A DNA stretch of 64,000 nt from Hydrogenovibrio thermophilus (GTDB lineage: Bacteria > Pseudomonadota > Gammaproteobacteria > Thiomicrospirales > Thiomicrospiraceae), in the NCBI RefSeq assembly GCF_004028275.1, contig NZ_CP035033.1, positions 248,001-312,000 on the forward strand, written 5' to 3'. The notes below the pieces were generated by a model. The model searched no databases. It saw nothing but the letters and a program-made list of their open reading frames with translations, and had not been told where the DNA came from. This document shows, one piece after another, positions 34,101 to 48,886 of this stretch; the stretch's first letter is position 1, and every line of letters starts with the position of its first letter. Position numbers and translations under genes: made by a program.

Positions 34101-36125
34101 ATGATGAAATTCAATCAATGCACTCGCTCATTTTTCCATAAAACCGCGGTTCGAACCGGCGGTTTGATGTTTCCCGTGATCTGTTTGTCTGCGTTTTCGC
34201 AGGCTGTTTGGGCGGAACCGACAAAGTCATCCGATGAAACCAGTCTGGAGACCGTTCAGGTGACAACGGCCACCAAAACACCAAGACGCTTGGACGAGGT
34301 GCCGGTTCAAACTACGGTGGTGACGCGGGATGATATCGAGAAAACCCATGCTCAAAATCTGGCGGAAGCCCTGAAGTATGTGCCCGGCGTTCAACTCAAA
34401 CCCATTCATGGCAAGACGGGCGAGGGTGTTTGGATTCAAGGGTTCGATCCGGACCGGGTTCTGATTCTGGTGGACGGCAATCCGGTGTCTCCTAGCACGG
34501 GCTCCACGGTGGATGTCACTCAGGTGGCGATTGGCGACGTGGAGCGCATTGAAATCATTAAAGGCGCGACCTCCGCTTTATACGGCACTTCTGCGATGGG
34601 CGGGGTGGTCAATGTCATTACCCGAGAACCGACGGCGAATTTCCGCGTGAGTGCGGATGTGTCCGGCGGCAACTGGGGAGAGCAAAGCGAAAAGGATAAT
34701 CCGCTTGCGAAAAAACACGGCAATTTTGAAGTGTCGACCAAACAAGACAAATGGTATGGCCAGGTCATTGCCGACTTGACCGAGTCGGACGGTTTTAAAG
34801 CGCCCGACACCGCAGGCGAGTCGACTCAAGGCTGGAATGGGCATAAAAACACGGTTTCCGGCAAGTTTCAATACGCTTTTGACAACGATTTGAAAGTGAC
34901 GTTGATGCCGCGCTATTTCGATGAAGATGCCGCCACTTTGGAAGATGTCGCGGTGCCCGGTTTCGGTAATCGTACCGAAGAGTACCGTGATAAAACCCAA
35001 GTGACCAATATCGCCACAGTGGTTGAACAACGTCTGAAAAATGACTGGAATTGGAAGATTCGGGCGATGTGGGAAGGGTTCGACAACGACTCCAATAAAG
35101 CCTCTCATCGTAAAACCTTTACCGACCATTCCGAGGCTGCAGCGCAATTGGACATGCCACTTGGGGATTCGCACTTGGTCACCGTCGGGGCCGAGTTTCA
35201 ATACGACTATATGGACGTCAAAAACCTTTCGACCGGTACTCAGGAAGTTGCAGATGAGACCAAAGAATCGACGTCGGTGTTTGCTCAGGACAGTTGGTTT
35301 GTGACCCCGAACCTTGAGGTGTTGCCCGGTGCCCGTTTTCACAATGACTCCCGTGACGGTTCGCATCTCGCGCCGATGTTGAACGCCATGTACAGCCGCC
35401 AAGACTGGTTGCCCGGCCGGGTCAATATTCGAGCCGGTGTCGGTAACGGTTACCGCACCCCGAACCTCAAAGAACTCTATTACCTGTTCGACCACAGTCA
35501 ACTTGGCTATGTCGTACAAGGAAACAAGGATTTAAAACCGGAAAGTTCGATCAGTTATCAATTGGGGCTGGAGTGGGTGTTTCCCGACGACGGTAGTTTA
35601 GGGGTCAGTCTGTTCCACAATGATATTGATGATCTGATTGCCGAAGCGCTGAACCCGAATAAGGTCGGCCCGAATGGCGCGGCGGTTTACGAATATCAAA
35701 ATATCGAAAAAGCCATGACGGAAGGCGTCGAAGTGGTGTTCAGAAAGCCGTTGGGTTCTTACTTCCGCTTGGACGCCAGTTACAACTACCTCAATGCACG
35801 CGATGTGGATACGAAGAAAGTGTTGGTTGAGCGCCCCGAGCACGAAGCGAAGCTGGGGTTGGATACCTATTTATGGAAGGTGGTGACGGTGACCGTGAAG
35901 ATGAATTACGAGTCCGACCAGTATCTGGATGAAGCCAATGACACGGTTTCGCCAGGCTACACAACCTGGGATGCCATTGTGAATTACGACATTAATCAGG
36001 ATTGGCGGCTGTACGGTGGGGTGAATAACGTTACCGATGTGCAGCGCAAATTCGATGGAACCGACTTCCGACCGGAAGCCGGGCGTTACGTTTATTTAGG
36101 GGTCCGTTTTCAGTATGAAGACTGA
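34101..36125 (+). CDS. TonB-dependent haem receptor
   Basis: 674 aa outer-membrane receptor. Signal peptide ends near QAVWAE. Plug domain (about residues 55-165) with VPVQTTVVTRDDIE, WIQGFDPDRVLILVDG and IKGATSALYGTSAMGGVVNVIT; 22-strand barrel follows, ending in YVYLGVRFQYED. The YRTPNLKELY and GNKDLKPES segments correspond to the FRAP and NPNL boxes of haem receptors. Directly followed by HmuY-, HmuS- and HmuTUV-type genes, so haem is the likely ligand. A TonB box-like stretch (ETVQVTTA) lies just after the signal. Confidence 0.9.
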   Translation: MMKFNQCTRSFFHKTAVRTGGLMFPVICLSAFSQAVWAEPTKSSDETSLETVQVTTATKTPRRLDEVPVQTTVVTRDDIEKTHAQNLAEALKYVPGVQLKPIHGKTGEGVWIQGFDPDRVLILVDGNPVSPSTGSTVDVTQVAIGDVERIEIIKGATSALYGTSAMGGVVNVITREPTANFRVSADVSGGNWGEQSEKDNPLAKKHGNFEVSTKQDKWYGQVIADLTESDGFKAPDTAGESTQGWNGHKNTVSGKFQYAFDNDLKVTLMPRYFDEDAATLEDVAVPGFGNRTEEYRDKTQVTNIATVVEQRLKNDWNWKIRAMWEGFDNDSNKASHRKTFTDHSEAAAQLDMPLGDSHLVTVGAEFQYDYMDVKNLSTGTQEVADETKESTSVFAQDSWFVTPNLEVLPGARFHNDSRDGSHLAPMLNAMYSRQDWLPGRVNIRAGVGNGYRTPNLKELYYLFDHSQLGYVVQGNKDLKPESSISYQLGLEWVFPDDGSLGVSLFHNDIDDLIAEALNPNKVGPNGAAVYEYQNIEKAMTEGVEVVFRKPLGSYFRLDASYNYLNARDVDTKKVLVERPEHEAKLGLDTYLWKVVTVTVKMNYESDQYLDEANDTVSPGYTTWDAIVNYDINQDWRLYGGVNNVTDVQRKFDGTDFRPEAGRYVYLGVRFQYED

Positions 36126-36165: not shown

Positions 36166-37359
36166 ATGCAATATACAAAAACAGGTTTATCCATTCTCGC
36201 TACCATGGCGTTGACTTTGACGGGCTGCGGCGGCGGTTCTTCATCCAGCTCCTCGGATGGTGGAACCCCTTCCTCTGCTCCGGATACGGCGACTTATACG
36301 ACGGTTGACGCGAGCTCCACGAGTGCTTGGGCTCATATGGATTTCTCGTCCGGGTCTTCCAATGCCACAGTCAACGATATCTGGCAAGTTGGGTTCCAGC
36401 GCTATAACGGTATGAGTAATAGCGGCATTTCCGCGACTGGGTCGGGGCCGAATGCGGATGATGTCAGCGTGTGTGTGGCCTATAAATTCGATGGGCTGTA
36501 CGACGGTGACGGCAACCCAGTTTTATCGGAATTTGAAAAACTCAATTTGAATAATACGTTGGAAGCCTTTAATTCGGTGACGAAAGCCTCTTGTGCCAGC
36601 GGTGATTATTTGACCGACACACTTTCGACACAGATTAAAAGCGATGACTGGATGGAGGCTTCAACGCCTTATCCAACGATCAGTTATCAAGCGGAGACAA
36701 CCGACAATAACGGCTGGATTATCCAGTCGGCGGATGGCAACAGTTACGCCCGTGTGAAGGTGTCGGATGTGGACATTACCTATAATGGAGCCACCGATCA
36801 CAGCATCAGTCCGGCCCGTATCAAGTTGTCGTCCGAAAAGTGGAATGGCACAAGCTGGGACGCGGCGTTGGACTCCGGTTGGCTGGATTTTGAAGCCGGT
36901 GCGGTGTACTGGGACTTGGAAACCAACACGACTGTCACGCAAGCGGACCAGTGGGACTTGAATGTTCAGCTTTCCGGCCGTGATTTTCAGATTCGTGTTA
37001 ATGGCGGTGCGTCCGGTGATGGTAACGGCGGTGTCGGTTTGGTCATTGCCGGTGACGGTTATGCGAAGGATGTCACAGATCCGACGGCCACTGGCTACAG
37101 CGCGACCAGTCAAATCAGTTCTTACAATGGCGATGGTGTTTCCGGTGCCTTTACCCAGGTGGATTCGAACTACGGGTTCTTTACCTATAATGGAACCGAT
37201 CACAAGATGTATCCGCACTTTACGGTTTACTTGGTAAAAGATGGGACGGACGACGCCACGGCTAAATACTATAAGCTTCAAGCCATCAGTTATTACGGCG
37301 AAACTGGTACCGGTGACAGTGGCAATGTTTATATCCGTTATGAAGAGGTGCTCGAGTAA
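36166..37359 (+). CDS. HmuY-like haem-binding lipoprotein
   Basis: 397 aa lipoprotein: signal ends in LTLTGC, then a Ser/Gly linker. The body shows two HmuY-like units with the STSAWAHMDFSS and DIWQVGFQRYNG segments, and later GWLDFEAGAVYWDLET with DLNVQLSGRDFQIRVNGG. HmuY of Bacteroidetes takes haem from host proteins and passes it to HmuR. Its position right after a TonB receptor supports a haemophore role on the cell surface. No single haem-ligand His pair can be assigned by eye. The stop overlaps the next start (TAATG). Confidence 0.8.
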   Translation: MQYTKTGLSILATMALTLTGCGGGSSSSSSDGGTPSSAPDTATYTTVDASSTSAWAHMDFSSGSSNATVNDIWQVGFQRYNGMSNSGISATGSGPNADDVSVCVAYKFDGLYDGDGNPVLSEFEKLNLNNTLEAFNSVTKASCASGDYLTDTLSTQIKSDDWMEASTPYPTISYQAETTDNNGWIIQSADGNSYARVKVSDVDITYNGATDHSISPARIKLSSEKWNGTSWDAALDSGWLDFEAGAVYWDLETNTTVTQADQWDLNVQLSGRDFQIRVNGGASGDGNGGVGLVIAGDGYAKDVTDPTATGYSATSQISSYNGDGVSGAFTQVDSNYGFFTYNGTDHKMYPHFTVYLVKDGTDDATAKYYKLQAISYYGETGTGDSGNVYIRYEEVLE

Positions 37360-40411: not shown

Positions 40412-41182
40412 ATGCTGATTACCGAACATTTAAACATTGCTTTGCAAGGACAGTCGATTCTCAAACACATCGATTTGATGATCGAACCCGGCGCCATCGT
40501 ATCGATTTTGGGGCCGAACGGCGCGGGGAAATCCACCTTGATGAAAAGCCTGAGCGGCGACATCCCGGATGGCTTGCATCAAGTCACGCTGGAAGGGCGC
40601 AAACTGAAAGAATATTCGGTACCGGAGCTCGCCAAGTATCGGGCGGTCATGCCGCAATCGGTTCAATTGGACTTTCCGTTTCTGGTGTCGGAAGTCATTG
40701 AAATGAGTTTGCTCACCGCGGTGTCGCATTACGAACGCGCCGCTTATGTTGAACGCGCCTTGGCGATGTTCGACGTGAGCCATTTGAAAGACCGCAATTA
40801 TCTGACGCTGTCCGGCGGTGAGCAGCAACGCGTGCAATTGGCGCGGGTTATTGCTCAGATTACCCATAAAGCCGACGACCGCAATCGTTATCTGTTTCTG
40901 GACGAATGCACGTCCAGTCTGGATTTGGCGCATCAGCATCAGGTGTTTGAAGTCGTGACCGAGGTGGTGAAAACGCATCGCATCGCCGCGATTATGGTGT
41001 TGCACGATTTGAATCTGGCCTCACAGTATTCGGGCCGTTTGGTGTTGATGAATCAGGGGGAAATCGTTAGTCAGGGAACGGTGGATGAGGTGCTGCAGGA
41101 AGAACGCATCACCGATGTCTATGGTTATCCGGTGAAAGTCACGCCCCACCCGAAAGGCTGGCCGATGGTGATCCCGGCTTAA
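40412..41182 (+). CDS. hmuV: HmuV, haem ABC transporter ATPase
   Basis: 256 aa. Walker A GPNGAGKSTLMKS (about residue 34), signature LSGGEQQRVQLAR (about 138) and Walker B RYLFLDECTSSLD (about 164; Asp-Glu followed by Cys instead of Pro). The H-loop is MVLHDLNLASQY. Last gene of the hmu operon; its stop interlocks with the stop of the convergent nnrS gene (TTAA), leaving no room for a terminator. Confidence 0.95.
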   Translation: MLITEHLNIALQGQSILKHIDLMIEPGAIVSILGPNGAGKSTLMKSLSGDIPDGLHQVTLEGRKLKEYSVPELAKYRAVMPQSVQLDFPFLVSEVIEMSLLTAVSHYERAAYVERALAMFDVSHLKDRNYLTLSGGEQQRVQLARVIAQITHKADDRNRYLFLDECTSSLDLAHQHQVFEVVTEVVKTHRIAAIMVLHDLNLASQYSGRLVLMNQGEIVSQGTVDEVLQEERITDVYGYPVKVTPHPKGWPMVIPA

Positions 41183-42426
41183 CCCGGCAGGCCGTCGGCT
41201 CTGGGGTGGGTGAGCCAAGTGTGATAACGCCACCAATAGCCGATAAAGGCGCCAGTCCAAAGTAATCCCGCCAGTACGTACAGCCCGTTTTGCATCTCAG
41301 GAAACGCCGGAATCACGAGGCCGCGAATCAGCGTGGCGGCGGTAATCAGTACGACGCCCATTTTCAGCCAACCGAGCCGGGTGAGCGGACGGCCAGTGTG
41401 AATGTGGCTGACAACCATTAAAACAATAAAGTAAGCCAGCCCCAACGCGCCCATAGTAAGAAAATGTCGGAAATGAGCGGATATTTGAACGTTTTCTTGC
41501 AATGCATCCCATCCCATAAGACCGTATCCGGCACCAAATAACGTCAATAAAATCATAATCGGCCAAACCGTCGGGAATTTGAGAATGAAGGTATCGGTTC
41601 GGAAAAAATCATTCAAGGTGTTGAACAGAGCGGCCATGACCGCCAAATTCAGCCAGGCCTGGGCGGAATTGCCGGGAAACAACAGTTCCGTTAAGGTCGC
41701 GACCGCGAGGCTGAAAACGGCCAGGTTGTAAGCGGGCGGTCTGGCCAAGAAGCGGGCGTCAATGTGCTCCTGTTCGAACCATTCGTTAATGGATTGGGTG
41801 GCGATGCGACGCACGGCGACCAAGACCAAAATCATAAACGCGCCGACGGAGGCTTGCAGGACGGCGAAACTGGACAGCGGAACCCATTCCGCTTCGGCGG
41901 CAAAAAACAGGGCCTGACAGAACACGATTAATCCGTAGGCAAGCGCAAGCCCCCATTGGCGTTTCAGAGGGTCTGTGAAAATTGGTTTTCCGACCAGCCA
42001 AAGCACAGAGGGTAAAAAAGCCAGATGAATAATGGCGACGCCATAGACACCAATGACATCAATTCCCCAAAAAGCCAGGCGCCCGGCCAGCCAGAGTGCG
42101 ACGAGTCCGAATAAGGTTCGGCCGTTCACGGGCGGCGTGCCTTCGAAAAACTCCGGCACGGCCGTCATGATGAAAGCGGCCATCATGCCGGAAGTGATGC
42201 CGAACAAAAGTTCATAAATATGCCAATTCAGCGGCGAAGACGGAAACGACACCGGCCACCAGCCGGTCCAGAACGCTACCCACAGGAAGACATTGACGGT
42301 CAGCACCCAGGGAATCAACCAGAAAAATGGCCGAAAACCGTAGGCGAAAACCGCTTTGGAATGGTTTTTCGGTCCGGTCAGGCTGGTGAGTAAGTCATTG
42401 AAAGGGGAAGCGGAAAGCCAGTTCAT
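41179..42426 (-). CDS. nnrS: NnrS family haem-copper membrane protein
   Basis: 415 aa with about twelve hydrophobic segments. NnrS features: AVFAYGFRPFFWL at the start, NWHIYELLFGITSGMMAAFIMTAVPEFFEGTPPVNGR with conserved His, and GLAYFIVLMVVSHIHTGRPL. NnrS protects against nitric oxide stress in denitrifiers. Here it overlaps an ABC transporter ATPase gene by ATGA and forms a minus-strand operon with it and its permease, opposite the hmu operon. Confidence 0.88.
   Translation of the reverse strand: MNWLSASPFNDLLTSLTGPKNHSKAVFAYGFRPFFWLIPWVLTVNVFLWVAFWTGWWPVSFPSSPLNWHIYELLFGITSGMMAAFIMTAVPEFFEGTPPVNGRTLFGLVALWLAGRLAFWGIDVIGVYGVAIIHLAFLPSVLWLVGKPIFTDPLKRQWGLALAYGLIVFCQALFFAAEAEWVPLSSFAVLQASVGAFMILVLVAVRRIATQSINEWFEQEHIDARFLARPPAYNLAVFSLAVATLTELLFPGNSAQAWLNLAVMAALFNTLNDFFRTDTFILKFPTVWPIMILLTLFGAGYGLMGWDALQENVQISAHFRHFLTMGALGLAYFIVLMVVSHIHTGRPLTRLGWLKMGVVLITAATLIRGLVIPAFPEMQNGLYVLAGLLWTGAFIGYWWRYHTWLTHPRADGLPG
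41653..41662. repeat. CCAGGCCTGG palindrome inside nnrS
   Basis: Exact copy, on the gene strand CAG GCC TGG (Q-A-W), followed on the plus strand by GGCGGAATT. Confidence 0.9.
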
Positions 42427-43181
42427 GCGGTTTGTTTCCCTCGCTGGGTGATGTTGAGTTCAAAGGTGTCGATAATGCACGGATCGGCCAGCAATTGACG
42501 CAGTTCGTTGTGGATGTCGTGATCGGTGCGTTCGGTCAAGGGGGTGGTCAGTTCGATTTGGCGGACAATGCGACCTGGTGAATGACCCAGGACCAGTATG
42601 CGGTGACTGAGTTTAAGGGCTTCCGTTAAATCGTGAGTGACGAACAGAACCGACAGGTTGTGTTGGGTGACTTGCTCAATCAGAATCGATTGCAGTTCTT
42701 GCTTCAAGCCAATGTCGAGCGCGGAAAAGGGTTCGTCCAAGAATAGAATTTCCGGTTTCAGCACCAAGGCGCGGGCAAAGGAGACGCGTTGGCGCATGCC
42801 GCCGCTGAGGTCTTTCGGGAATTTGTCCAGGTCGCTGATTTTTAAGCCGAACTCCAATGCGATGCGACGCGCTTTTTCATAACGTTCTTGCCGCGAAACA
42901 CCGCGGGCTTTCAAACCGAAGGCGATGTTGTCTAAAGTGGTTTTCCAGGGTAGTAGGCGGGCTTCCTGAAAGGCAAAGGCCTGGGAGGAAAATTCATTGT
43001 CAATGCGGCCGTTTTCCACTTCCAATAAGCCGCTGCAAAGATGCAATAGAGTGGTTTTGCCGCCACCGCTCGGGCCGACAATCGAAACCACTTCGCCCTG
43101 CTGTAACGAGAAGTGGATGTCGGCCAGAATGTCGGTCGGGCCGAAGCGGTGGCTGAGGTGGGATACGTTCAGTTGCGCCAT
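42423..43181 (-). CDS. NitT/TauT-type ABC transporter ATPase
   Basis: 252 aa. Walker A GPSGGGKTTLLHL (about residue 36), signature LSGGMRQRVSFARAL (about 122) and Walker B ILFLDEPFSALDIG (about 145), with H-loop FVTHDLTEALKL. The subclass is that of nitrate/taurine/aliphatic-sulfonate importers, but the substrate is unknown. Overlaps the permease gene by 13 bases and nnrS by 4, so the three are translated together. Confidence 0.9.
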   Translation of the reverse strand: MAQLNVSHLSHRFGPTDILADIHFSLQQGEVVSIVGPSGGGKTTLLHLCSGLLEVENGRIDNEFSSQAFAFQEARLLPWKTTLDNIAFGLKARGVSRQERYEKARRIALEFGLKISDLDKFPKDLSGGMRQRVSFARALVLKPEILFLDEPFSALDIGLKQELQSILIEQVTQHNLSVLFVTHDLTEALKLSHRILVLGHSPGRIVRQIELTTPLTERTDHDIHNELRQLLADPCIIDTFELNITQRGKQTA

Positions 43182-43951
43182 TGTTCCACCTCTCGTTTAA
43201 TCGGTTCCAGCAACAAATATTCGACGACCAGTAATACCAGCACCATCACGGTAATCAACGCCATGGCATCGGCAGAGTTGAAATGGCTGCGTGCCACCGC
43301 CAGGTCCGCACCGATGCCGTCCGGTGTGGTGAGTAGTTCGGCCATGACGACAATTTTCCAACTCATGCCCAAAGCCGAAATCCAAGCCGGAAATACATAG
43401 GAAAACAGGTGCGGAAAGACCAGGTCGGTGAGTTTCATCCAAAACGGCGGTTGAAAGCTGTCGCTCATTTCCAATAAATCGCCTTCCAGTGTCCGTGTGC
43501 CTTGTAATGCGCCGATGAAGATAATCGGGAAGGCCGCGATGACGACGGTGAAAATGACGCTTTCATCGGTCATGCCGAACCAGAGCATCGCCAAGACAAT
43601 CCAGGCAATCGGCGGGACGCCCATGATAATGGTAATCAAAGGGCGACTCATCATGGCAGCCGTGACAAAAGTGCCGGCCAGCATCCCGAATGACGTGCCC
43701 AGCAATAAGGCGATGCCAAAGCCCCAAAGGGCGCGTTGAACGGTAATCCAGAGCGACTGCCAAAGTTCGGGCGACTGCAGCATTTGCCACAGGGTGAGAA
43801 GCGTTTCTTTCGGAGAAGGCAGAATCAGGCTGCCGTTGAATTGATGGCCGATATCCCAAAGTGCCAGAAACAGAAAGATACTTGCCAGTGCGCCCCAACC
43901 GCTCCATAGGTAACGGGGAAATTCTTTTAAGATTTGTGCAAATGCGTTCAT
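43169..43951 (-). CDS. NitT/TauT-type ABC transporter permease
   Basis: 260 aa with about six membrane segments. The BPD-type coupling segment is EIISDSFQPPFWM-like (LEMSDSFQPPFWMKLTDLVFP, about residues 155-175), and GMLAGTFVTAAMMSRPLITIIMGVPPIAWIVLA is typical of SsuC/TauC permeases. First gene of the minus-strand ABC-nnrS operon; its promoter would lie in the Fur-box region shared with the second TonB receptor. Its binding protein seems to be encoded apart, after that receptor. Confidence 0.88.
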   Translation of the reverse strand: MNAFAQILKEFPRYLWSGWGALASIFLFLALWDIGHQFNGSLILPSPKETLLTLWQMLQSPELWQSLWITVQRALWGFGIALLLGTSFGMLAGTFVTAAMMSRPLITIIMGVPPIAWIVLAMLWFGMTDESVIFTVVIAAFPIIFIGALQGTRTLEGDLLEMSDSFQPPFWMKLTDLVFPHLFSYVFPAWISALGMSWKIVVMAELLTTPDGIGADLAVARSHFNSADAMALITVMVLVLLVVEYLLLEPIKREVEQWRN

Positions 43952-44046
43952 GATGCGGCTTTCGTAACGGGAATGGCGAAAATATTAGCATACCTGTAAA
44001 CGTGGGTAGCTGTCATTTAAAAACTAAATAGGTGGAGTATAACAAT

Positions 44047-44065
44047 CTTAATGATAATAATTATT
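44047..44065. promoter_or_regulatory. Fur-like box between the ABC operon and second receptor
   Basis: CTTAATGATAATAATTATT matches 15 of 19 positions of the Fur consensus, with an uninterrupted AATGATAAT. It stands in the 233-base divergent region, 95 bases from the permease start and about 165 from the receptor start. Confidence 0.72.
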
Positions 44066-44229
44066 GTTTATAGTTATGTTATATAATAGAATGCTGATAT
44101 TGGTTCGGCAGCCGATTTTTCGGCGCCATTGACATTCAAACCGAATAAACCCCATTTCAGGCATCGTTCGCGAATTAAAAGGAATTGATGAGGTTGGTCT
44201 GCCTGGTGAAAGTTAAATTAGGAAGCAAA

Positions 44230-46401
44230 ATGAAACTGAAAGAACAGACGATTTTACTTTCTTCAGCCATGTGGGCGGCGTATGCGACCCCTGTGTGGGC
44301 TGAAGAACGCTCAAAGGCCGAGACAAAGCTTGAAACCGTGGTCATTTCCGCGACGAAAACCGAGAAGTCGATTGATAAAGTCACGGCGTCGGTGGACGTT
44401 ATTACCCAGGACGACATCGAGAAGATGGGTGCCATTACCTTGAAAGACGTGTTCCAAAATACACCAGGCCTGGTGTTGCAATATGGCACTTTCCCGTCCG
44501 GCAGTTCGACATCGAAAAGTTCGGTGAATATTCGCGGCCTAGGCACGACCGGGACGCTTTGGTTGTTGGATGGGCGTCGACTGGCGGGCGAAGTCAGTAA
44601 CCCATATGATATGGATCGTTTTCCGGCCTCTATGATTGAACGCATTGAAATCGTCAAAGGGCCCATGTCGGCATTGTATGGTGCAGATGCCGTCGGCGGG
44701 GTTATCAATATCATCACCAAACGGCCGGATGACAAGTTTGTGGCGGATGTGAGTGTGTCCGGTGGTGCCAATGCGGAAGGTGAAGGCTCCAATAAACAGG
44801 TCAGTGCCAATGTGCGCGGCGGTATTGGCGATTTTCGCGGTAAATTCTTTATGTCGGTCACCGATTCCGGCGCGTACTATGAGCAGGAGCAGACCGATAC
44901 CACCGTTACCGGAAACCAGGTCAAGCCGTCCACACGCCCGGCACCATTGAATAATATTCAGGACAGTTACGACGTTGATGTCAGTTATCGTGAGAATGCG
45001 ACCGTCAAGACCGTGGGGGGGCGAGGTGAGTATGATATCTCAAACGATTTGACCGTTGGGGCGGAAGTGTATTGGATGGACGAAGAACGCGACGGTTCGT
45101 ATCGCGGTACCTATCATCCGACGGCATACACCATGATGGGCAACCGGGTGCCGGCTTATGACGTACCGGTGAACTCCAAAGACGAAAACGAACGTTATGA
45201 TATGGCGGTGGATGCCCAGTATTTCGTCAACGACGATTTGGACATCGATTTCCGTGTTTATCGCTCTTATTACACCAAACGCAATACCACGACGTTGCAG
45301 CACTATCAGGATTTCGGTTATGCCAGCAAATCGGCGTCGGCTTCCAATGGGATGAATGCCAATGTGGACGTCACCTCTTATGAATTGAGCTCGAATTGGG
45401 CACCGGTGGAGAATCATTTATTGACCGGCGGGGTCGAATATCGTCAGGAAAAGCGTGAAGCGACCGTCTTCACTCAATCCAACGATATGGACACGCGCCG
45501 AGTGTCGTCCCAAGCGATTTATCTGCAGGACGATTTTACCCTGGGTGATACCTGGTCTTTGACCATCGGTGGACGCTATGACCAATATGACCAGGCCGCT
45601 TACACCGATCAAAATGGTCTGGATCATGACAGTTCAACCGATTCCGAAAGTACTTTCCGCGTTGGCGTTTTGAAAAACTTTCACCCGCTCTTGAATGCAC
45701 GCGTGAATGTGGCGCAAGGTTTCCGGGTGCCGGATATTCGTGAACTTTACATCCAAAAGCAAACCCCGGGCGGCTTGTTGCTAGGGGCGCAGACGGTGGA
45801 TACCGCACAAGGCAAGGACGCTTATGACTTGAAGCCGGAAAAAACCTTAAGTTATGAGTTGGGGGTCAACGGTGCCACCAGCGAGTTCTCATACAGCGTC
45901 ACGGCCTTCCTGAACCAGATAAACGATAAAATCCAGCAGGTGAGTGTGGCTGGAAACATGACGGATTATTATACTTTCCAGAATGTGAGCGATGCCGAAA
46001 CCAAAGGGATGGAATTGAATCTCGGTTACCAGTTCCTGAACAATTTAAAAGGACGCTTTTTCTGGACCGAGCTGCGTACCGAAAACAAAGATACCGGTAA
46101 GCAATTGGAGTTTAACTCGGATCGGGTCGTTGAATTGGGATTGGATTGGGATGTCACCAGCCTTTTCCGATTAGGCGCTTATGCCGTCTATACAGGTGAA
46201 CAATATTATGTTGAAGACACTCAGGGCCATTACACCGACCCTTATACTTTGACGAATTTGACCGGCGGCTACCGCTTCGGTGAAAACAAACAAATCGATT
46301 TGTACGGCGGCATCAACAACGTGTTCGACCAAAAAGTCGATAAAGTCATTGGTTCCAATGTCGGCACCTATTACTTTGCCGGCGTGCGAGTCGGCTTTTA
46401 A
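44230..46401 (+). CDS. TonB-dependent receptor (second)
   Basis: About 723 aa from ATG 44230, chosen because AGGAAG precedes it and the signal peptide (ILLSSAMWAAYATPVWAE) follows; the frame also has TTG 44185 and ATG 44188. CirA/FepA-like plug: VTASVDVITQDDIEKMG, SSVNIRGLGTTGTLWLLDG, VKGPMSALYGADAVGGVINIIT (about residues 45-160). The barrel ends in YYFAGVRVGF, a good outer-membrane C-terminus. Ligand unknown; a NitT/TauT-type binding protein follows 66 bases later. A copy of the palindrome encodes TPGLV. Confidence 0.9.
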   Translation: MKLKEQTILLSSAMWAAYATPVWAEERSKAETKLETVVISATKTEKSIDKVTASVDVITQDDIEKMGAITLKDVFQNTPGLVLQYGTFPSGSSTSKSSVNIRGLGTTGTLWLLDGRRLAGEVSNPYDMDRFPASMIERIEIVKGPMSALYGADAVGGVINIITKRPDDKFVADVSVSGGANAEGEGSNKQVSANVRGGIGDFRGKFFMSVTDSGAYYEQEQTDTTVTGNQVKPSTRPAPLNNIQDSYDVDVSYRENATVKTVGGRGEYDISNDLTVGAEVYWMDEERDGSYRGTYHPTAYTMMGNRVPAYDVPVNSKDENERYDMAVDAQYFVNDDLDIDFRVYRSYYTKRNTTTLQHYQDFGYASKSASASNGMNANVDVTSYELSSNWAPVENHLLTGGVEYRQEKREATVFTQSNDMDTRRVSSQAIYLQDDFTLGDTWSLTIGGRYDQYDQAAYTDQNGLDHDSSTDSESTFRVGVLKNFHPLLNARVNVAQGFRVPDIRELYIQKQTPGGLLLGAQTVDTAQGKDAYDLKPEKTLSYELGVNGATSEFSYSVTAFLNQINDKIQQVSVAGNMTDYYTFQNVSDAETKGMELNLGYQFLNNLKGRFFWTELRTENKDTGKQLEFNSDRVVELGLDWDVTSLFRLGAYAVYTGEQYYVEDTQGHYTDPYTLTNLTGGYRFGENKQIDLYGGINNVFDQKVDKVIGSNVGTYYFAGVRVGF
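44464..44473. repeat. CCAGGCCTGG palindrome inside the second receptor gene
   Basis: Exact core, extended to the 16-base palindrome ACACCAGGCCTGGTGT (44461-44476); CCA GGC CTG (P-G-L). Confidence 0.9.
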
Positions 46402-46467
46402 CCTCTGCATTGATGATAAACACGCCGGCGAAGCATATCGCCGGCTTATTGAAAAGGAACAAAGCAT

Positions 46468-47475
46468 ATGATGTTCAAAAGCTGGGTACGTTGGCCGCTC
46501 ACTTTATTGTTGGTGGCAGCTTCCATGATGACGATGGCCGCGGAAAAATTGCCGAAGCTGGTGTTGTCCGGCCCCTTCGCCGGGGTGTCCAACCCTTTGA
46601 TTCACATGGTGGAAACCGGCGCCTTAAAAGAGTTTGCCGACGTGGTGGAATTTAAACCCTGGAACGGTGCGGATCAGTTGAAGTTGATGGCGTTGGGCAA
46701 AGGGAATTTTCAAGCCGATTTCATTGCCATGCCTTCCAATGTGGCCGCTAACCTCTACAACCGTGGGGTGGACCTGAAACTGATGAATATCTCGGTGTGG
46801 GGCATTTTATGGATGGTGTCACGTGATGATAGTCTCAAGACCTTGGCCGATTTCAAAGGCAAGGAAATTGCCATGCCGTTTCGCGGTGATATGCCGGATA
46901 TTCTGTTTGAGCAACTGGTGAAAGCGGAAGGCTTGGACCCTAAAAAAGATTTTAAACTGCGTTATACACCGCACCCATTGGATGCGATGCAGTTGTTGAT
47001 CATGCGTCGGGTGGATCACGCTCTCTTGCCGGAGCCGGCCATTTCCATGGCGTTACGGAAGACGAAATCGTTTCCCATCAGTGTGATTGCGCCCGATCTG
47101 TATCGCAGTGTCGATTTGCAGGCGGAGTGGGGCCGGGTATTTAAGCGCAAAGCGCAGGTTCCCGAAGCCGGGATGACGGCGATGCCAAGTGTGCTTGATA
47201 ATCCAGCGTTGCTGGAACGGTTTAATGAAGCCTACGCCGAGTCCATGCAATGGTGTCTGGATAATCCGAAAGCGGCGGGTGAGATGGTGGCGAAACACAT
47301 TGCGCTACTGGCGCCGGAAGCGGTAGCGGATTCAATCGAAATCACGAAGTTTGACGTGGTGCCGGCTTTACAGGCGAAAGCGGAGTTGGAGTTCTTTTAC
47401 CGGCAGTTGATGCAAAATTTACCAGACCTGGTCGGCGGCAAGTTGCCGGATAACGGCTTCTACTACACGCCTTAA
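46468..47475 (+). CDS. NitT/TauT-type periplasmic binding protein
   Basis: 335 aa. Signal peptide ends near TMAAEK. Two-lobe binding protein of the nitrate/taurine class: SGPFAGVSNPLIHMVETGALKEF, DFIAMPSNVAANLYNRGVDL, LADFKGKEIAMPFRG, MRRVDHALLPEPAIS. The class also includes binding proteins for thiamine precursors, sulfonates and others, so the substrate is open. Following a TonB receptor and opposite a matching ABC pair, it probably completes a receptor-to-cytoplasm import path. A one-mismatch palindrome (CCAGACCTGG, 47422-47431) lies near its end. Confidence 0.87.
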   Translation: MMFKSWVRWPLTLLLVAASMMTMAAEKLPKLVLSGPFAGVSNPLIHMVETGALKEFADVVEFKPWNGADQLKLMALGKGNFQADFIAMPSNVAANLYNRGVDLKLMNISVWGILWMVSRDDSLKTLADFKGKEIAMPFRGDMPDILFEQLVKAEGLDPKKDFKLRYTPHPLDAMQLLIMRRVDHALLPEPAISMALRKTKSFPISVIAPDLYRSVDLQAEWGRVFKRKAQVPEAGMTAMPSVLDNPALLERFNEAYAESMQWCLDNPKAAGEMVAKHIALLAPEAVADSIEITKFDVVPALQAKAELEFFYRQLMQNLPDLVGGKLPDNGFYYTP

Positions 47476-47511: not shown

Positions 47512-48000
47512 TCAGGATGGCGTCACTTCGATTTCGATGTGCGACAGCTTTTCCTGCAACAGTTGGGGGGAGCTGTTTTCCACGGTTCTCAACGGCTTAT
47601 TGAATACGGTGCAACTGGAACGCGCGGCGTGACAGAGTGCTTGGTTCGGACAGTCGTCCGGGCAAAAGACTTCGTCGGCTTGCTGAACGGCGTCGCAGAC
47701 CGCTTCAATCCGGTCGCTTTCGGGGGTGATGAGTTCGCCGTGATAATGTTGCACGATGGCTTTATAAGCTTTGATGAGTTCGGGCGATGCGCCGACATAG
47801 GCGATTTTGCGGCCCTTCAGGTTCGGCGGTTGTTGGCTATCCAGCACGTGCAGGTAATCTTCTTCCAAGGCTTGATATTGCGCCTTTAATTCCGCAATGG
47901 TGTGTTTCGCGGCCTGCAATTCCTGTTTCAATCGACGGTTTTCGCTCAACAGGTGTTTGGGTTGATTGGGGTGTGTCGGGAAAACGTGCGTGTTTGTCAT
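47512..48000 (-). CDS. DUF2325 protein with coiled coil
   Basis: 162 aa. An N-terminal coiled coil (about residues 20-52, LLSENRRLKQELQAAKHTI) precedes a DUF2325 domain: KIAYVGASPELIKAY, then the Cys-rich CPDDCPNQALCHAARSSC (about 112-129), where the Cys residues may hold a metal or iron-sulfur cofactor. Role unknown; DUF2325 genes often sit near iron or haem genes, as here. The start lies in the palindrome GGTGAATCACC (48001-48011), which may hide its ribosome site. Confidence 0.82.
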   Translation of the reverse strand: MTNTHVFPTHPNQPKHLLSENRRLKQELQAAKHTIAELKAQYQALEEDYLHVLDSQQPPNLKGRKIAYVGASPELIKAYKAIVQHYHGELITPESDRIEAVCDAVQQADEVFCPDDCPNQALCHAARSSCTVFNKPLRTVENSSPQLLQEKLSHIEIEVTPS

Positions 48001-48251: not shown

Positions 48252-48695
48252 TTATTTGACCTGTGCCATGTATTGTTTTAAACGGCCTTGGTTCATCGCG
48301 AACCCGGCTTCCAGGGTGTCGGCTTGTTTCATGGCGTCGTCTTTGTTGACGGCTTGTCCGACCTGAATGACGCCGACCATCGCCATGGATTTATGCGGCA
48401 GACAGTAATAAATATTGACGCCTTCCTGTTCGAATTTGACTTTACCGCCATCGAATCCGACTTCCCATTTCGAGCCGTCCGGCGTGACTTCGGAAACCGC
48501 ATTATGACCGGTGTCCGTGGCAACGAAGTTCACAGTATCGCCCGGTGCGATTTTCAAATAACCCGGTTCAAACACCATAATGCCGTCGGTGCCGGCGTTG
48601 AGCATTTTCACTTCGTGTTCGGCGGCGTGCACCATGGAAGCGGTGGTTAAAAGCGCCGTACCGACACAAAGTTTTAAAAAGAGATTGCGTGTCAT
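48252..48695 (-). CDS. Pseudoazurin (blue copper electron carrier)
   Basis: 147 aa with a signal peptide (ALLTTASMVHAAE). Copper ligands fit pseudoazurin: His64 (GHNAVSEV), Cys98 and His101 (YYCLPHKS) and Met106 (MAMVG), with the usual spacing. It is a soluble periplasmic carrier that feeds copper nitrite reductase, N2O reductase or cytochromes. None of those enzymes lies in the window. A Fur-like box sits about 93 bases upstream, which is unusual for a copper protein. Confidence 0.9.
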   Translation of the reverse strand: MTRNLFLKLCVGTALLTTASMVHAAEHEVKMLNAGTDGIMVFEPGYLKIAPGDTVNFVATDTGHNAVSEVTPDGSKWEVGFDGGKVKFEQEGVNIYYCLPHKSMAMVGVIQVGQAVNKDDAMKQADTLEAGFAMNQGRLKQYMAQVK

Positions 48696-48787
48696 GTGTC
48701 TTCCTCTTGAATCAAAGACGTGGTTGATAAAAGGAGAAAACGGTGTCTCGGATGACTTCGTTTTCGTGATTTGAAATAAATAGTATC

Positions 48788-48806
48788 ATTAATGATAATT
48801 GTTATC
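48788..48806. promoter_or_regulatory. Fur-like box upstream of pseudoazurin
   Basis: ATTAATGATAATTGTTATC matches 15 of 19 positions of the Fur consensus, with intact AATGATAAT and TTATC halves. It lies in the 220-base gap between the pseudoazurin start and the stop of the next minus-strand gene, so pseudoazurin is its only candidate target. Confidence 0.72.
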
Positions 48807-48886
48807 AATATTATTTAATAAAAAATGACGCTCAATTGTTTGGATGGGTTTTGGATGGGGGTAGAAAACCGGGGTTGGCTATGAAA

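Follow-up and report, generated by a model that had tools for sequence, protein, structure and literature searches.

The stretch analysed here, hereafter called the window, comprises 64 000 nucleotides of the Hydrogenovibrio thermophilus genome (contig NZ_CP035033.1, positions 248 001–312 000 of the forward strand) and contains, at window positions 41179–47475, two divergent gene units that encode an ATP-binding cassette (ABC) importer, a TonB-dependent receptor and an NnrS protein. The left unit is on the minus strand and runs permease–ATPase–NnrS, with overlaps of 13 bases between the permease and ATPase open reading frames (ORFs) and of 4 bases between those of the ATPase and NnrS. The permease (43169–43951, 260 residues) matches PF00528 (BPD_transp_1) and the ATPase (42423–43181, 252 residues) matches PF00005; both are of the NitT/TauT class, their best NCBIfam matches being SaoP (109 bits, cut-off 295) and a taurine ATPase (174.8 bits, cut-off 357), respectively. 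NnrS (41179–42426, 415 residues) matches PF05940 with 231.5 bits against a cut-off of 28 and is placed below, by tree position and an AlphaFold model, in an ABC-linked branch of its family. The right unit, on the plus strand, consists of the receptor (44230–46401, 723 residues), with Pfam plug and barrel domains and with CirA and ferric enterobactin receptors as its nearest solved structures, followed by a periplasmic substrate-binding protein (46468–47475, 335 residues) that matches PF09084 (NMT1-type, E = 1e-7) and PF13379. The ATG at 44230, which is preceded by AGGAAG, is a more plausible receptor start than the alternative TTG at 44185. An earlier note on this DNA had proposed that such a receptor and binding protein face an ABC–NnrS operon across one Fur-like box; Pfam matches bear out all of the genes that it named, and its interval (44047–47475) takes in the box, the receptor and the binding protein, but the ABC–NnrS operon lies outside it at 41179–43951.

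The box between the two units, TGATAATAATTATTG at 44052–44066, agrees with the 7-1-7 Fur consensus at 12 of its 14 positions, and 300 shuffles of the sequence between the units give this match P = 0.003. The divergent arrangement across a single Fur box described in the earlier note stands. Across the whole genome 16 sites have no more than two mismatches to this consensus, compared with two for the reversed pattern. Some of these sites fall inside genes and are likely to be chance matches; others precede feoAB-like genes, exbB/tonB-like genes, a TonB receptor/ABC pair, a heme receptor at 34101 and a pseudoazurin gene, all identified by eye from the beginnings of the ORFs. The genome, a single contig of 2.6 Mb, has one clear match to fur (E = 2e-41) and a second, weaker member of the Fur family. 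The genome-wide enrichment and the iron-type genes behind other sites make the box at 44052–44066 credible, and the predicted site probably puts both divergent units under iron control, in agreement with the iron-controlled unit that had been proposed. At the same promoter an NsrR site scored no better than shuffles (P = 0.97), and for this promoter taken alone there was a weak Zur-like score (P = 0.037). A further Fur-like match, at 43624 within the permease gene, is probably fortuitous.

The gene grouping is conserved in alpha-, beta- and gammaproteobacteria and in Campylobacterota. A search with the binding protein returned 46 named loci (48–76% identity), mostly from beta- and gammaproteobacteria and Campylobacterota, with one bin labelled Desulfosporosinus; the nearest named relatives are Hydrogenovibrio bins, with binding proteins that are 72–74% identical. 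A permease is present in 43 of the 46 loci, an ATPase match also in 43 (the one in L050 being unrelated) and NnrS in 38, a conserved synteny of the kind that the earlier note had proposed to look for. In all eight loci lacking NnrS the contig stops no more than about 6 kb from the binding protein; in two of them, L029 and L050, other genes directly follow it. Among 62 genomes of the window's order, five have an ortholog of the binding protein, and in all five NnrS lies no more than 4.5 kb away on that contig. The distribution is patchy (two of 11 genomes of the genus). Recurrence across the named loci and the genomes of the order rules out a chance adjacency of transporter and NnrS. In a plasmid collection 67 records match the binding protein, many at only 24–37% identity; 15 of these regions were viewed, 14 of which carry annotation, and 11 of the 14 contain NnrS. 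The unbroken order receptor–binding protein–permease–ATPase–NnrS is found in Agrobacterium CFBP5877, where it stands directly before nap, and in Bartonella, while the order varies in the other regions. The recurring core thus consists of the binding protein, the permease, the ATPase and NnrS, with the receptor as its least conserved part. Ferritin-like, FeoB, ExbB or CobN genes occur in the fetched flanks of 11 of the 46 loci, a count made without a control set and with ferritin recognized by eye, and on a Nitratiruptor plasmid FTR1, ferritin, imelysin and a Fur-family repressor lie beside the operon.

Promoters of the relatives were taken from before the receptor in 20 loci and from before the binding protein in 25, one locus (L037) being dropped as too short. 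A Fur score of at least 11 was reached in 20 of these 45 promoters and in 32 of 295 control regions. The control regions were not matched in composition, and a shuffle test was therefore added for 44 of the 45 segments: Fur matches exceeded shuffles with z = 14.6 (23 of 44 segments at P ≤ 0.05) and FNR/DNR-type matches with z = 11.3 (19 of 44 segments). NsrR sites (z = 1.7), a Zur-like pattern (z = 0.7) and a scrambled palindrome (z = 1.8) were not enriched over shuffles, and Zur and NsrR were accordingly rejected as the main shared regulator. FNR/DNR-type boxes are present in 21 of the 45 promoters. Within a spacing of 14–20 bp, a range that like the score limits was set after the sites had been seen, an FNR box precedes a Fur box in 12 of the 45 promoters and the reverse order does not occur; these 12 pairs represent about seven kin groups, near kin being L046/48/51/53, L040/45 and L032/36. 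Over 200 shuffle rounds such pairs numbered 0.01 on average and one at most. Only one of the 295 control regions has a pair, and it precedes an ORF adjoining the binding protein of L026, so that it may be the same promoter. Among 16 promoters from the plasmid collection the pair was seen once, in Aliarcobacter. The simplest reading of this sequence element is that it would be activated without oxygen or with nitric oxide (NO) and repressed by plentiful iron.

In maximum-likelihood trees the ABC-linked NnrS proteins form a branch apart from unlinked NnrS, by which we mean NnrS not beside this binding protein, and this includes copies from the same genome. The first tree sets 37 operon NnrS against 30 unlinked ones from the window's order with support of 100/100, and the two NnrS of the window genome itself are likewise on opposite sides. 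This tree holds 37 of 39 operon sequences (L043 and L067 were dropped for length), and the program flagged adjoining long branches and compositional unevenness. A second tree, with added alphaproteobacterial plasmid sequences, paralogs from operon-bearing genomes and Sinorhizobium 1021, separates 33 ABC-linked from 31 unlinked NnrS, again with support of 100/100 and in all 200 bootstrap trees. It combines 22 of the first 37 and 12 of the first 30 sequences with 11 more ABC-adjacent and 19 more unlinked ones; of 55 matches, 30 were obtained as loci, and exact copies, a Neisseria NnrS-like ORF and a short second NnrS of Azospirillum were left out. The NnrS of V. cholerae and R. sphaeroides are in neither tree. 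Both trees are unrooted, and the ABC-linked set is therefore one side of a branch. A Martelella plasmid (L171, 8460–10882) carries two tandem NnrS genes after the transporter, one from each side. Residues Arg32, His69, Glu72, Arg116, Arg207, His321, His343 and Arg368 are kept almost invariably on both sides, whereas His71 is present in all 47 unlinked sequences but in only 28 of 48 ABC-linked ones. Glu92 and Asn214 are present in 48 of 48 ABC-linked sequences; at the position of Glu92, 37 of the 47 unlinked sequences have asparagine.

The AlphaFold model of NnrS (residues 2–415, without Met1) has a predicted local distance difference test score (pLDDT) of 89.8 and shows the twelve-helix fold of heme-copper oxidases. 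It superimposes on CcoN (8smr_E; Z = 30.4, root-mean-square deviation of 3.5 over 377 residues) and on NorB of the cytochrome c-dependent NO reductase (4xyd_A; Z = 30.4, deviation of 3.2 over 358 residues), with 10% identity in each case. No PDB chain matched NnrS by sequence, and profile–profile alignment of NnrS with CcoN, for which the CcoN alignment was shallow, gave no match; the kinship is therefore drawn from structural comparison only. In the heme-copper oxidase fold the heme ligands are located in helices 2 and 10. His69 is near the start of helix 2 of NnrS and His321 is in helix 10, and by helix position these two are likely to be the heme histidines. Helices 6 and 7 contain no conserved CuB/FeB histidine in alignments of 37 and 48 sequences. 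From the predicted fold, the retention of His69 and His321 and the lack of a conserved histidine in helices 6–7, we infer that NnrS is a CuB-less relative of the heme-copper oxidases with perhaps a single heme. This link was not met among the literature matches listed; no text search was aimed at it and it may already be known.

The importer has the make-up of the NitT/TauT class, with an NMT1/SsuA-type binding-protein fold, one permease and one ATPase, and the earlier note had read it as belonging with transporters of nitrate, sulfonates or thiamine precursors. That reading found no support at the level of ligand: the binding protein, the permease and the ATPase reach no specific NCBIfam cut-off (besides the taurine ATPase, ntrCD scored 140 bits against 291.8, ntrB 61.5 against 209.05 and the SsuA family 43.7 against 163.5). 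A nitrate, sulfonate or taurine transporter proper was therefore set aside on family cut-offs, although the fold comparison leaves one possible. The model of the binding protein (pLDDT 91.3) is nearest to 3hn0 (Z = 31.5), followed by three structures of PqqT with pyrroloquinoline quinone (PQQ) bound (Z = 27.0, 26.8 and 26.6) and by SsuA (Z = 26.2), which is tied with PqqT; binders of bicarbonate, nitrate and thiamin give Z of 23–25, those of bicarbonate and nitrate standing at 25. Fifty-one alignment columns are invariant across 46 binding proteins, and Trp65, Pro89, Asn107, Gly112, Pro137, Pro190, Trp221, Ala234, Gly323 and Pro327 remain invariant in a set of 61. The window receptor is likewise under every specific cut-off listed (221.1 bits against 316.85 for the heme-receptor family TIGR01785), and it has no histidine in the FRAP-NPNL segment, which we take to be typical of heme receptors and where the neighbouring receptor at 34101 does have one. 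The resemblance of the receptor to CirA and enterobactin receptors, its lack of the heme histidine and the nearby ferritin, FeoB, ExbB, CobN and Nitratiruptor iron genes make an iron-related ligand most likely; PQQ-like cofactors, tetrapyrroles, copper chelates and sulfonates are possible.

We propose that the two units form an importer of an iron-related ligand that is under iron control and has an NnrS of its own as partner, a reading to which we give a probability of about one half. A ferric chelate or some other molecule resembling a metallophore would enter the periplasm through the TonB receptor, and there the binding protein would pass it to the permease and ATPase for import of the ligand or its product. 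In the inner membrane the ABC-linked NnrS may carry out a redox or NO-shielding step, for example by reducing a ferric ligand or by keeping NO off incoming iron. Fur would repress the system when iron is plentiful, and in many relatives an FNR/DNR-type activator would add a condition of anoxia or NO, following a logic like that of E. coli feo. A published account (PMC9246220) states that NnrS of V. cholerae does not remove NO but shields the iron pool against dinitrosyl iron complexes, which fits the proposed step. Neither a NirS match nor a NirK above cut-off turned up in the window genome (other NO sources, such as NO and nitrate reductase genes, were not searched), which suggests that the iron side and not denitrification is primary here. 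The label of NO-stress protein given in the earlier note is too simple for an NnrS of a separate ABC-linked branch in such a genome.

Several observations weigh against this proposal. The receptor shows similarity in only 31 of the 46 loci, at 22–30% identity in 23 of those and not always beside the operon, and two Campylobacterota plasmids have a Phenol_MetA_deg-family protein in its place. Genome G033 carries a second gene for the binding protein, on a contig that lacks NnrS, and in the P. nitroreducens, Diaphorobacter HDW4B and Paraclostridium plasmid regions no NnrS was found by annotation or by an ORF search of the stretches. A scan that also scored FNR/DNR-type boxes left 18 of the 45 relatives without a Fur match of at least 11, and by this consensus none of the eight alphaproteobacterial promoters has a Fur box; alphaproteobacteria often use other iron regulators. 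At the window promoter itself the FNR site is not better than shuffles (P = 0.88). A stronger form of the proposal would make the ABC-linked NnrS an obligate subunit of an iron importer, with a redox or denitrosylating function: as a heme protein with the oxidase fold but no CuB, it would reduce the ferric ligand or strip NO from iron and so make iron uptake possible amid NO. This form appears unlikely to us at present.

An organic ligand is one alternative. If the system imported a redox cofactor or its precursor (PQQ-like, a flavin or a pyrimidine) that is needed more at iron shortage, and carried no iron, the place of PqqT directly after 3hn0 would be accounted for and the invariant Trp65, Asn107 and Trp221 would suit an aromatic ligand. 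SsuA, however, is tied with PqqT, the other binders follow at 23–25, no sequence match to PqqT appears up to E = 10 at about 20% identity, and iron genes recur nearby; we regard such a ligand as unlikely. Heme or another tetrapyrrole is a still more doubtful candidate. TIGR01785 is the best NCBIfam match of the window receptor and of four of eight others, a CobN-type chelatase with DUF2149 adjoins the operon in some loci, and HutW and HutX adjoin the operon of Cereibacter, but all of these receptors score below the heme cut-off, the FRAP-NPNL segment of the window receptor has no histidine, and a distinct heme operon that includes a receptor lies next door.

Acquisition of copper, in which a copper chelate would be imported at iron limitation for NnrS and pseudoazurin as the cell switches to copper proteins, ranks behind heme and is in our view improbable. 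NnrS is called a cuproprotein in PMC6769254. In L029, L039 and Martelella a pseudoazurin gene belongs to the operon or adjoins it, and in the window a pseudoazurin-like blue copper protein (48252–48695, minus strand; TIGR02375, 105.4 bits, cut-off 109.85) is encoded as a possibly co-regulated neighbour. Ninety-seven bases upstream of this gene is a near-perfect Fur box, TGATAATTGTTATCA at 48793–48807 (gene and box together 48252–48807), which has one mismatch and is among the two best sites of the genome; it suggests that pseudoazurin may be a copper protein switched on at iron shortage as an iron-sparing electron carrier. A methionine-rich, probably secreted protein in or near the operon of four loci (L025, L029, L039 and L042), one member of which weakly matches LTXXQ and another of which has no Pfam match, would also suit copper. 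Set against these, ferritin, FeoB, ExbB or CobN accompany 11 of the 46 loci and pseudoazurin only two, and the copper-receptor family, whose cut-off is 472, gives the L044 receptor a score of 138. Least probable by far is an operon for NO defence, whose transporter would move a nitrogen-oxide-related or protective compound and whose link to iron would be secondary: the FNR/DNR-type boxes of the relatives and the Rrf2, Crp/Fnr, NnrU, nap or hcp neighbours on plasmids point that way, but Fur boxes are at least as enriched, and the window combines a genome without NirS or NirK above cut-off with a promoter without an FNR or NsrR box.

A Neisseria gonorrhoeae record (L165, 4871–12064) holds a distant version, seemingly in partial decay, near a dnaK-like gene (identified by eye): a receptor-like barrel in two ORFs, the three transporter genes for binding protein, permease and ATPase, a gene for a membrane protein, and a short ORF resembling NnrS. 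The Paraclostridium plasmid (L168) has binding protein, permease and ATPase without NnrS beside two cupins, a hemerythrin, a ferredoxin and hcp, so that the transporter reaches Bacillota in an NO-type neighbourhood. In the window, a DUF2325-like protein (47512–48000), scoring under the Pfam cut-off, adjoins the binding protein; a DUF2325 cluster is also near the operon in L030, L032 and L034, and an annotated DUF2325 protein is found on the Nitratiruptor plasmid. The heme operon further to the left of the permease–ATPase–NnrS unit comprises the receptor at 34101, an HmuY-like protein (36166–37359; PF14064 in two matched stretches), HemS and then HmuTUV-like genes; the ferritin, HugZ-like and HmuTUV-like genes of the window were identified by eye. 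HmuY is a hemophore of Bacteroidota and its presence here is unusual. No Rfam family reached threshold within the window.

The importer with its own NnrS branch is apparently a widespread bacterial gene set that has not yet been described; as the earlier note had supposed, the combination was not found among the open-access literature matches listed. A distinct NnrS branch that travels with one transporter in two phyla, under probable iron control, makes NnrS testable as a transport or redox step, and the predicted oxidase/NO-reductase fold points to specific residues to mutate. The set may also mark a route of iron acquisition, perhaps anaerobic in many carriers, that is hidden by annotation as 'nitrate' or plain 'ABC transporter'. 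Were NnrS an obligate subunit, the heme-copper oxidase fold would have a new function, and the protection of the iron pool by NnrS elsewhere would have an explanation.

Compared with known systems, the window NnrS shares its Pfam family with the NnrS studied in V. cholerae, which has been linked to iron protection, and it has the histidines of helices 2 and 10 in common with unlinked NnrS, from which it differs in its side of the tree, in the variability of His71 and at the position of Glu92. CcoN and NorB are alike in fold, but unlike in sequence and in the conserved CuB histidines of helices 6–7 that NnrS lacks. The NitT/TauT importers NrtABCD, SsuABC, TauABC and ThiXYZ are alike in binding-protein fold and in having one permease and one ATPase; unlike them, the window system is kept together with NnrS and a Fur box and scores below all ligand-specific cut-offs seen. 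PqqT (9b1u, 9b1v and 9ooz) resembles the binding protein in fold, with about 285 residues aligned at a root-mean-square deviation of about 3, and differs in its identity of 19–20% and the absence of a sequence-level match. Among solved structures 3hn0 alone is clearly related in sequence (BDI_1369 of Parabacteroides distasonis; profile E = 9e-20); it was deposited as a 'nitrate transport protein'. E. coli feo is activated by FNR and repressed by Fur; the FNR–Fur element of the relatives is similar, whereas the transporter differs and at the window promoter the Fur box stands alone.

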